This document shows, piece after piece, positions 1,877 through 5,755 of a stretch of 10,370 bases of DNA. Position numbers and translations under genes: made by a program. Source of the stretch: DASVDK01 sp036381125 [NCBI: Thermodesulfobacteriota bacterium] (GTDB lineage Bacteria; DASVDK01); contig DASVDK010000248.1 of NCBI GenBank assembly GCA_036381125.1, positions 1 to 10,370 on the forward strand. The letters run 5' to 3'. The first letter of the stretch is position 1. The number at the start of each line of letters is the position of its first letter. The notes beneath the pieces are model-generated. The model did not search any database. It was given only the letters and a program-made list of their open reading frames with translations, and was not told where the DNA came from.

Positions 1877-3601
1877 GTGCTCGATCGCGCGGGCAATGCG
1901 CGGCGCCCCGACCGCCGGCGGTCGGCCGGCCGCCGCGCCGGGCCGGACGTGGCCGCCCTGGCCGAGGTCGGGCGGCTCCTCACGTCCACCCTCGAGCCGC
2001 GGGAGGTGCTGAACCTCCTCGTCAAGGCCGCGGTGGACCTGACCGGTGCGTCGTCGGGATCGCTGCTGCTGCGCGACGCCGACAGCCGGCTCCTCAACCT
2101 CGAGGCTTCGCGCGGCTACCCCTCGTCCGGGCGCGTGAAGCTCCTGTCGCTCAGGCTCGGCGAGGGGATCACCGGCTGGGTCGGCCAGCACGGCCGCTCG
2201 CTCCTCGTGCCCGACGTCCGGCGCGACCCCCGCTACGTGGAGGTGGACCGCTCGATCCGCAGCGAGCTGGCGGTGCCGCTCACGCTCAAGCGGGAGGTCA
2301 TCGGCGTCATCAACGTGAACGCCACGCGGGTCGGCGCCTTCGACGAGGGCGACGTCCGGATCCTCGAGGGGCTCGCCGCGCAGTCGGCGGCCGTGGTGCA
2401 GGGCGCGCGACTCCTCGACGCCGCGCGGCGCCGCAGCCGCGCGCTGCAGACCCTCTTCAACGTCGGCCAGCTCGTCGCCGGCTCGCTCGAGCTGGACGTC
2501 GTCCTCAGGCAGGTGGCGGCCTCGACGGCCCGGCTCCTCAAGACCCAGGTCACCTCCATCATGCTCCTGTCCGAGGACGGGGAGGAGCTGATCCTGCGCG
2601 CCGTGCACGGCGGCGGCCGCGCCTACGCGGCGCGCGGCGCGATCCGCGTGGACCAGTCCTACGTCGGACGAGCCGTACGCCAGAGGCGCGCCGTCACCGC
2701 CATGGACGTGCGGGAGGTCCACGGCTACTCCAGCGCGGAGCTGGCCCGCCGGCAGGGCCTCGTGGCGCTGCTCACCGTGCCGCTCGTCTCCCGCGACCGG
2801 GTGCTCGGCGTCATCAACGCCTACAAGCGGACGCGTCACCGGTGGACGAGCGAGGAGGTCGCGCTGCTCCGCTCCCTGGCCGACCTCTCGGCCGTGGCGA
2901 TCGAGAACGCCACCCTCCACGAGGGGCAGCTCAGGCTCGAGCAGGCACTGCGGACCATGGAGCGCACCGCGACGCTCCAGGAGCTGGCCATCGAGATGGC
3001 GCACGAGCTGCGCAACCCGCTCACGATCATCCGCATGCTCCTCCACTCGCTCGGCACCGACCACCGGGAGGACGTCGAGGTGATCCGCACGGAGGTGGCG
3101 CGGCTCGAGCGCCTCGCCACGCGCTTCCTCGATCAGGCGAAGCCGAAGGAGCCGGTCATGGCGCCGCTCGACCTCAACGAGCTGCTCGGCCGGCTCCTCG
3201 TGCTGGTCAGGCCGAAGGTCGCGGCGGGCCGCCTGCGGGTGCGGCGCGACCTGGCGCCGTCGCTGCCGCCCATCGTCGGCGACCGCGACCAGCTCGAGCA
3301 GCTCTTCCTGAACCTCGTTCTGAACGCCTTCGACGTGCTCCCGCCGGGCGGGCGGCTCACCGTGGCGACCCGGCGGACCGCGCGGGGGGTCGAGGCGACC
3401 GTGGCCGACGACGGGCCGGGCATCCCGGAGGCGATCCGGCAGCGGCTCTTCGAGCCGTTCGTCACGACCAAGCCGACCGGCATGGGCCTCGGCCTCGCCA
3501 TCGTCCGCCGCATCGCCGACGGCCACAAGGCCACCGTCCGCGTCGAGAGCGAGGCCGGCAAGGGGACGGCCTTCACGCTCGAGCTGCCCGCGAGCGGGTG
3601 A
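1877..3601 (+). CDS. Soluble sensor histidine kinase with two GAF domains (NtrB-like)
   Basis: This is the sensor of a two-component system. From the GTG at 1877 it has 574 residues: GAF domain 1 (about 25-182), GAF domain 2 (about 190-347), a short coiled linker, the dimerisation/phosphoacceptor helix with EMAHELRNPL (H376), and a C-terminal HATPase with N-box NLVLNA (N483), G1 DDGPGIP (511-517), F-box LFEPF and G2 GMGLGLAI (535-542). All catalytic boxes look intact. No membrane segment is seen, so it probably senses a cytoplasmic small molecule or redox signal through the GAF domains. The reading frame is open far upstream through the preceding gene, but that part is low-complexity Ala/Arg/Gly and is not counted. 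GTG 1877, 16 bases after the preceding stop, is the best start; ATG 1775 and GTG 1949 are alternatives, and none has a clear ribosome-binding site. Its last 18 codons are repeated twice just downstream. The likely partner is the NtrC-type regulator at 4283. Confidence 0.9.
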   Translation: MLDRAGNARRPDRRRSAGRRAGPDVAALAEVGRLLTSTLEPREVLNLLVKAAVDLTGASSGSLLLRDADSRLLNLEASRGYPSSGRVKLLSLRLGEGITGWVGQHGRSLLVPDVRRDPRYVEVDRSIRSELAVPLTLKREVIGVINVNATRVGAFDEGDVRILEGLAAQSAAVVQGARLLDAARRRSRALQTLFNVGQLVAGSLELDVVLRQVAASTARLLKTQVTSIMLLSEDGEELILRAVHGGGRAYAARGAIRVDQSYVGRAVRQRRAVTAMDVREVHGYSSAELARRQGLVALLTVPLVSRDRVLGVINAYKRTRHRWTSEEVALLRSLADLSAVAIENATLHEGQLRLEQALRTMERTATLQELAIEMAHELRNPLTIIRMLLHSLGTDHREDVEVIRTEVARLERLATRFLDQAKPKEPVMAPLDLNELLGRLLVLVRPKVAAGRLRVRRDLAPSLPPIVGDRDQLEQLFLNLVLNAFDVLPPGGRLTVATRRTARGVEATVADDGPGIPEAIRQRLFEPFVTTKPTGMGLGLAIVRRIADGHKATVRVESEAGKGTAFTLELPASG

Positions 3602-3622
3602 GCGGATGAACGCGCGCGTGGC
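3547..3622 (+). repeat. Kinase-tail repeat, copy 1 (76 bp, overlaps the kinase 3' end)
   Basis: These 76 bases contain the last codons of the kinase (SEAGKGTAFTLELPASG, stop at 3599-3601) plus 21 bases beyond. They match copy 2 (3734-3809) at 75 of 76 positions, 187 bases away. The single difference (C at 3556, G at 3743) is silent in the kinase frame (GCC/GCG, Ala). The segment 3553-3588 also matches copy 3 at 35 of 36 positions. Confidence 0.95.
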
Positions 3623-3639
3623 AACGAAAGCGAGGCGCG

Positions 3640-3656
3640 GCTCGGCCGCGCCGAGC
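3640..3656. terminator. Short GC hairpin downstream of the kinase gene (possible terminator or mRNA structure)
   Basis: A perfect 7-bp inverted repeat, GCTCGGC / GCCGAGC, with a 3-base loop (CGC) lies 38 bases after the kinase stop. It is followed by a G-rich run rather than a T-tract, so it does not meet the usual intrinsic terminator definition. It may instead be a transcript-stabilising or attenuating structure between the kinase and the downstream genes. Confidence 0.35.
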
Positions 3657-3668
3657 GGGGAGGGGGGT

Positions 3669-3723
3669 GCGGGGGGCCCGGCTCGGGCGACCGCCCGGCT
3701 GTGCGGCCCGTGAGGCCCCCCGC
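3669..3723. repeat. Perfect 10-bp inverted repeat with nested hairpin
   Basis: The arms GCGGGGGGCC (3669-3678) and GGCCCCCCGC (3714-3723) are exact reverse complements separated by 35 bases. A second hairpin (CGGGC / GCCCG, 3684-3688 with 3693-3697) is nested in the loop. The structure lies in the unique spacer between kinase-tail copies 1 and 2 and ends 10 bases before copy 2. It may be a transcription or mRNA-processing structure, or the remains of a small repetitive extragenic element. No second copy is seen elsewhere in the window. Confidence 0.6.
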
Positions 3724-3733
3724 GGATGACGGC

Positions 3734-3809
3734 GAGCGAGGCGGGCAAGGGGACGGCCTTCACGCTCGAGCTGCCCGCGAGCGGGTGAGCGGATGAACGC
3801 GCGCGTGGC
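3734..3809 (+). repeat. Kinase-tail repeat, copy 2
   Basis: A second copy of the kinase 3' end, 75/76 identical to 3547-3622, again ends with the LELPASG codons and TGA (3786-3788) and then the same 21 bases. It lies in a different frame from the kinase (offset 187). It could be read as a 20-residue mini-ORF from ATG 3726. Its last three bases overlap the start of copy 3. Confidence 0.95.
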
Positions 3810-3842
3810 GGGCAAGGGGACGGCCTTCACGCTCGAGCTGCC
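3807..3842 (+). repeat. Kinase-tail repeat, copy 3 (shortened, different end)
   Basis: These 36 bases are identical to 3740-3775 in copy 2 (offset 67) and match copy 1 at 35/36. After the shared LELP codons the sequence departs, encoding VNG and TGA (3853-3855) instead of ASG and TGA; relative to the other copies it looks like a small deletion plus substitutions. This TGA overlaps the ATG of the next gene as ATGA, the arrangement expected if this copy was once the end of the kinase gene. Confidence 0.95.
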
Positions 3843-3851
3843 GGTGAATGG

Positions 3852-4282
3852 ATGAGGCGGATGAGGGAAACGAGCTGGATCGACCGGCGGCCCGGGACCG
3901 TGGAGTTGCGCGCGCGGATCGAGCGCGACGGGCTCGTCGAGACGGTGCGGATCGTCGCGGACGAATCGCTCGCGCCGCGCGGCGTCTACGTCGCGGTGCG
4001 CGGCGCGGCCGGATGGCGCACACTCGAGGCGCTCCCGAAGCGGGAGGGCGGCTGGCTCGCGGTGGTCGTCTCGGCGCCGGACGGTGCGCGTCGGCGCGAC
4101 GACCTCGACCTGCCGCGCGAGGTCGTGGTGGACTACCCCGCGGCGGCGGTCGAGGCGTTCGCGCGCGAGCGGCTCGCGCTCGCGCCGGCCCGAGCCGCCG
4201 ACGTGGCCGTCCTGCGCGTGACGCCGCCGGCGCTCGACGTTCGCGCCGCGACGCGCCGGTACGATTCGCAAGAACCGCGCTC

Positions 4283-4286
<4 letters not shown>
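3852..4286 (+). CDS. Unrecognised 144-residue protein between kinase and response regulator
   Basis: I do not recognise this protein. It has 144 residues with no cysteine, no signal peptide and no membrane segment. Residues about 15-95 alternate hydrophobic and charged positions (VELRARIERDGLVETVRIV, GVYVAVRGAAGW, GGWLAVVVSAP), consistent with a small beta-rich domain; the rest is Arg/Ala-rich. ATG 3852 overlaps the TGA of the third kinase-tail copy (3853-3855), and its own TGA (4284-4286) overlaps the regulator's ATG, so translation is likely coupled at both ends. ATG 3861 is an alternative start. Its position inside a two-component operon suggests an accessory role in signalling, for example modulating kinase or regulator, but nothing in the sequence shows this. 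The strict ATGA link to a certain gene supports it being a real CDS despite the GC-rich background, in which spurious long frames are common. Confidence 0.7.

Positions 4287-5755
<1,469 letters not shown>

Follow-up and report, generated by a model that had tools for sequence, protein, structure and literature searches.

On our reading of the sequence, there is about an even chance that an unusual arrangement in DASVDK010000248.1, a contig of a Thermodesulfobacteriota bacterium (GCA_036381125.1), is a scar left by recombination where a two-component sensor histidine kinase gene ends. The window, that is, the whole 10,370-nucleotide stretch analyzed, carries three successive copies of this kinase end, followed by a 144-residue open reading frame (ORF) that starts at 3852 (ORF 3852) and by an NtrC-type response regulator gene (Table 1). 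A scar of a known kind is the most likely origin of these copies, and an assembly artefact is its serious and main rival.

Copies 1 and 2 are identical at 75 of 76 positions (99%), while a third in-register copy (3801–3876) reaches 71% over its full length in the repeat search. The longest exact runs are 66 bases between copies 1 and 2 (3557–3622 = 3744–3809), 36 bases between copies 2 and 3 (3740–3775 = 3807–3842), and 32 bases between copies 1 and 3 (3557–3588 = 3811–3842), at offsets of 187, 67, and 254 bases, respectively. The 32-base core has three mismatch-free occurrences in the window, and three matches at up to three mismatches are attained in 0 of 200 shuffles. The stop codons of the three copies end at 3601, 3788, and 3855, one per reading frame. 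The repeat search, the exact runs, and these stop positions confirm two claims of the first-pass annotation, namely that the kinase end is present three times in a row, as a 75/76 match and a 36-base core, and that each copy lies in a different frame. Displaced copies 2 and 3 each contain an in-frame ATG, which gives rise to two 20-residue ORFs.

Several features were not part of that annotation: the diverged tail of copy 3, the overlap of its stop codon with the next ORF, the two 20-residue ORFs, and the four GCGGATGA sites described below. At the protein level, copies 1 and 2 end in LPASG* and copy 3 in LPVNG*. The tail of copy 3 can be aligned with that of copy 1 over 21 columns, with five substitutions, four of which are transitions by our own count, and one gap in addition; the score of this tail alignment is equalled by 3 of 4799 random window segments. 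The core, on the other hand, shows no differences in 32 positions, which has a probability of 1.7 × 10−4 at the tail's rate of change and of 0.003 with a flat prior on that rate. Because the tail has diverged and the core is unchanged, a junction inside the core fits better than the uniform ageing of a simple duplication.

The latter would be a plain tandem duplication by slippage, with a period of 67 and then of 187 bases and later point changes. Tandem Repeats Finder does report a period-67 array of 2.1 copies at 3722–3864, and local repeats with at least 57 of 60 positions identical at offsets of 40–999 bases are found in 3 of 111 sequences scanned (1,051,736 bases, a few places having been fetched twice), i.e., in the window and in two further sequences, L010 and L014. 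Slippage nonetheless appears very improbable. Besides the contrast of 5 differences in 21 tail columns with none in the core, a plain duplication predicts the same flank behind each copy and fails because the right flank of copy 3 differs: beyond a shared GCGGATGA motif, copy 1 runs into a unique spacer rich in guanine and cytosine (GC), whereas copy 3 runs into ORF 3852.

The two further sequences are of some interest in their own right. L014, an Acidobacteria contig, holds two near-perfect local repeats (598–821 and 2576–2831) with spacings of 114 and 155; as judged by eye, the second starts near the stop codon of a gene, and the units contain GC-rich palindrome-like stretches. L010 carries at 1516–1760 an array whose 86-base unit includes GGGGCAAC and GTTGCCCC and which by eye resembles a dispersed palindromic repeat.

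The GCGGATGA motif occurs four times in the whole window, at 3602, 3722, 3789, and 3857. At three of these sites a short ORF starts, and the second ATG (3861) of ORF 3852 lies in the fourth. All four lie within 3602–3864, each with an ATG soon after a stop codon; in 300 simulated 263-base stretches, the motif has a mean count of 0.007 and never occurs more than once. This pattern could be read as a functional relay of coupled mini-ORFs, in which the four sites would pass ribosomes from the kinase to ORF 3852 and the regulator, yet such a relay is the least probable of the explanations considered here. Since GCGGATGA belongs to the unit that is repeated, its recurrence needs no selection. The mini-ORFs also fall short of the length that a coding test requires, and the 35-residue ORF behind copy 1 lacks the codon-position GC pattern of the kinase and the regulator.

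Copy 3 is most simply regarded as the original kinase end, now displaced, with 3557–3810 as the added part. This assignment is suggested by (i) the stop codon of copy 3 (TGA, 3853–3855), which overlaps the ATG of ORF 3852 as ATGA, (ii) the join of the flanks across the 254 bases, which restores a 574-residue kinase that has no internal stop, ends in LPVNG*, and retains the ATGA overlap, and (iii) the tight packing of orthologous loci. Regarding the last point, 12 distant orthologous loci (kinase identity 40–49%) were compared, with the alignment extrapolated to place the regulator start. Ten of them have a kinase–regulator distance of −23 to +6 bases, and the other two have distances of 68 and 219 bases. 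The distance in the window is 681 bases, a gap that looks derived in light of this packing. The two loci with a real gap, L099 and L100 (219 and 68 bases, respectively), are the only such pairs among the 12, and the longer gap contains degenerate GGTTCAAGGTTCAA and TGAACCCTGAAC repeats.

The scar could have formed as follows. An ancestral operon would have consisted of the kinase, ORF 3852, and the regulator, joined by ATGA overlaps. DNA of a diverged allele, with an ASG-tailed kinase end and other DNA behind it, would then have recombined within the identical core, and the far end would have been closed by a short-homology join. Two candidate joins can be read from the repeats, both of which may be due to chance: GAGCGAGGC (9 bases) before copy 2 and GGC (3 bases) before copy 3. 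In the kinase, GAGCGAGGC precedes the core, and it is found again where the spacer ends. Two such events, or one event and a subsequent local duplication, would yield the observed order and would swap the kinase tip V-N-G for A-S-G. The kinase probably works as before, and the displaced ends and the spacer are probably without function.

Homology-facilitated illegitimate recombination takes place along these lines in competent bacteria, mostly with joins of 3–10 bp, according to the sections of PMC3240628 devoted to it. In PMC5361080, the text on effector arrays proposes this process for the downstream displacement of effector genes in Vibrio and hypothesizes a similar displacement for Rhs loci. 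For Salmonella, the relevant part of PMC3411829 describes many spontaneous rearrangements at short repeats.

Several points weigh against a recombination scar. The comparison of tail and core rests on just 21 columns, the scar requires two events with the same donor tail, and the 3-base join GGC is too short to carry weight alone. Moreover, the insert may be absent from the real genome. The same sections of PMC3240628 state that this type of recombination usually deletes target DNA as well, that ordinary recombination is 100 to a million times more frequent, and that three of four such clones in E. coli have no homology at the join. No target deletion is visible in the window, where the flank join, taken in place of an empty-site comparison, keeps the 574 residues and the overlap with ORF 3852. 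A donor allele, in which an ASG tail would precede this spacer, was not found in the searches, and no close relative that could show an empty site is among the 80 loci listed from the bacterial-genome scan. Kinase orthologues in the genome searches (1995 genomes counted, repeats included) do not exceed 49% identity, and those of the regulator do not exceed 61%; scans of viral contigs gave five distant loci with the regulator and one with the kinase. ORF 3852 has no counterpart in the 3.6–4.7 kb fetched around the 12 distant orthologous loci, and none of these 12 loci has a second kinase end (16–20 mismatches in 36).

Second kinase ends within at most 1 kb were sought in 103 rows, which correspond to 98 distinct places including the window; row L072 was left out as its match stopped before the gene end. 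The number of mismatches in 36 positions is 0 in the window, 8 in L004 (refetched as L086), and at least 13 in all others. The contig L004 belongs to an Elusimicrobia assembly. At its positions 1354–2099, a kinase 3′ end of 105 bases recurs 641 bases downstream with 86% identity, in another frame and immediately before the next kinase gene. A HicA/HicB toxin-antitoxin pair lies on the opposite strand between the two copies. As a parallel to the proposed scar, L004 has a diverged second kinase end with other genes in between, in an unrelated contig, although this copy may instead be what is left of a tandem paralogue. A broader reading of both loci is that very small cassettes dock at the conserved HATPase 3′ end of kinase genes, a copy of which they carry. 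Insertion would rebuild the kinase and place a passenger gene (ORF 3852 in the window, HicAB in L004) between it and the old neighbor, in an integrase-free, integron-like array growth by homologous anchoring at a shared protein motif. Such a mechanism is highly doubtful.

The main rival is that the assembler merged strain variants or miscounted a local repeat. The true genome would then have a single kinase end ahead of ORF 3852, or two strains would each contribute one end. The window is possibly a metagenome contig, and the exact runs of 32–66 bases have, by our own reasoning, the size at which short-word assembly graphs collapse. A mixture of two strains would also be expected to yield two tails, each with its own right flank. 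In its treatment of assembly errors, PMC7111523 reports that metagenome assemblies can have wrong local repeat numbers, sequence duplicated where scaffolds are joined, and concatenated copies. Copy 3, however, differs in tail and flank, and 111 unique bases separate copies 1 and 2. The unique spacer and the diverged tail argue against plain concatenation, but not against strain merging. A diverged second kinase end is also present in the unrelated contig L004, itself an assembly. An artefact is a serious, if on balance unlikely, explanation.

The features discussed above and their neighbors are collected in Table 1.

Table 1. Coordinates and assignments of features in the window (aa, amino acids; strand as given, with a dot for unstranded features).
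Feature	Position	Strand	Basis
Sensor histidine kinase, GAF-GAF-HisKA-HATPase_c, 574 aa, ends LPASG* in copy 1	1877–3601	+	Pfam GAF_2, GAF, HisKA, HATPase_c; translation
Repeat copy 1: final kinase codons and 21 bases past the stop	3547–3622	+	Repeat search; 66-base exact run with copy 2
Repeat copy 2; 20-aa ORF 3726–3788 (MTASEAGKGTAFTLELPASG)	3734–3809	+	Repeat search, translation
Repeat copy 3: 36-base core and diverged tail; 20-aa ORF 3793–3855 (MNARVAGKGTAFTLELPVNG)	3807–3855	+	Repeat search, exact runs, translation
Putative insert, 254 bases: piece A 3557–3743 (187 bases), piece B 3744–3810 (67 bases)	3557–3810	+	Copy offsets, flank join
Unique spacer of the insert, 111 bases, GC 0.83	3623–3733	.	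Base composition, self-search
35-aa ORF behind copy 1	3606–3713	+	ORF list
144-aa ORF in the kinase–regulator interval; weak match to PF06475 (Putative glycolipid-binding)	3852–4286	+	Pfam
NtrC-type response regulator: receiver, sigma-54 interaction, Fis-type helix-turn-helix	4283–5755	+	Pfam
GH3-family gene	in window		Family match
IclR-type regulator	in window		Family match

An integrative origin was one suggestion of the first-pass annotation, according to which a short element that carries a copy of the gene's 3′ end and rebuilds it on insertion would produce such a scar. That annotation also listed recent duplication, gene conversion, and misassembly, each of which may apply, with copies 1 and 2 nearly identical and copy 3 diverged in its tail. 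In its present form, the integrative explanation would take the insert as what is left of one or two tiny integrative elements that have decayed, with the kinase 3′ end as the attachment (att) site. The layout agrees with that idea as far as the apparent insertion of a gene-end copy that rebuilt the kinase is concerned: a restored end is followed by the old, displaced end, which is still ATGA-joined to the next ORF, and the kinase frame is intact through copy 1. In addition, direct repeats of 32–36 bases are within the 8–60 bp range of tyrosine-recombinase att sites given in the passages of PMC5704250 on such sites, which also describe elements that use the 3′ ends of protein genes, keep the gene whole, and, once decayed, accumulate in tandem. 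What the data do not support is the integrative element itself, which appears improbable. No integrase is found among the ORFs of the insert, the longest of which on the gene strand has 35 residues, nor by Pfam among the antisense frames, although a decayed remnant could lack one. The two pieces of the insert, both of which start with the kinase end, are tiny at 187 and 67 bases, and a second kinase end is absent from the 12 orthologous loci, as noted above.

Nor is an arm or dyad common to the three cores. The DNA fold of 53-base stretches has z-scores of −2.49 for copy 1, −0.64 for copy 2, and +1.26 for copy 3, and copies 1 and 2 share a second stem that copy 3 lacks. A blastn search at an E value of 10−5 gives no match to the insert among 50,697 phage records or among 72,556 plasmid records, and the core pattern has no exact match in viral contigs.

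The remaining content of the insert is sparse. Gene-strand ORFs that start within it have 20, 20, 20, 31, and 35 residues. The longest of them is probably not a gene; it has no match in Pfam, PHROGs, or PADLOC. A self-search of the window with the spacer returns, besides the spacer itself and the repeat, short matches alone. Four long antisense frames cross the insert, and antisense genes were rejected as candidates with 0 of 4 matching Pfam; the GC content of the window is 0.736, and long antisense frames are common in DNA of such composition. A structured RNA in the spacer region was likewise rejected (z of −0.33 for 3602–3745 and +0.47 for 3540–3860 against shuffles), as was a palindromic DNA element in the spacer, the two parts of which (z of −0.60 and −1.45) are not clearly beyond shuffles. 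The window contains no Rfam match at gathering scores, and no promoter or terminator pattern is seen within 3400–4400.

Among the neighboring genes, the kinase is annotated from a GTG start codon, which is our choice. The match of ORF 3852 to PF06475 has an E value of 5.8 × 10−5 and a score of 23.2 bits, under the curated cut-off of 25. The stop codon of this ORF and the ATG of the regulator overlap as ATGA (4283–4286). A search of the PDB with ORF 3852 gives just two hits (E values of 0.55 and 0.98), its structure model is too poor for use (mean predicted local distance difference test score of 40.7), and it has no plasmid match at an E value of 0.01. A 120-residue ORF upstream of the kinase (1498–1860) contains several cysteines (WNCEHF, TCTLL, VCDRW) and has no match in Pfam, NCBIfam, PHROGs, or PADLOC. 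A defense or phage origin of ORF 3852, ORF 1498, and the 35-residue ORF was considered and rejected, there being no PHROGs or PADLOC match. By our own reading of the translations, the window may also hold branched-chain amino-acid transporter genes.

If the scar is real, it suggests that displaced-end scars like those of toxin loci also arise at ordinary regulatory genes, where a conserved catalytic domain would supply the short identical cores, and it would represent one route by which new ORFs enter the interval from kinase to regulator. In the case of an artefact, the window offers a clear case of an assembly error that mimics the scar of a mobile element.

Four known systems lend themselves to comparison. 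Local repeat errors of metagenome assemblies share with the window the near-identical short direct repeats within 300 bases; here, in contrast, the copies have different tails and enclose unique sequence. Integrative elements and their cis-mobilizable remnants are similar in the rebuilt gene end, the old end at the far side, the 32–36-base repeats, and the tandem pieces, but differ in that the window shows no integrase, pieces of just 187 and 67 bases, and no common dyad in the cores. An open-access literature search for displaced kinase ends gave work on type VI secretion systems (T6SS) only. Rhs and Vibrio T6SS effector-immunity arrays have, like the window, a constant gene body, a new 3′ end, and an old end kept before the old neighbor. 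An array of that type was rejected as such for the window, since the gene is a GAF-GAF histidine kinase and not a toxin with a variable C-terminus and immunity genes; unlike in these arrays, only the last three residues of a sensor kinase change, no immunity gene is present, and the copies are far shorter. Homology-facilitated illegitimate recombination differs from the window in that no deletion is seen, two rounds are needed, and the donor and the competence of the host are only assumed. It shares with the proposed scar an identical anchor, here the 32–66-base core, DNA added beside the anchor, and perhaps a short join at the other end.

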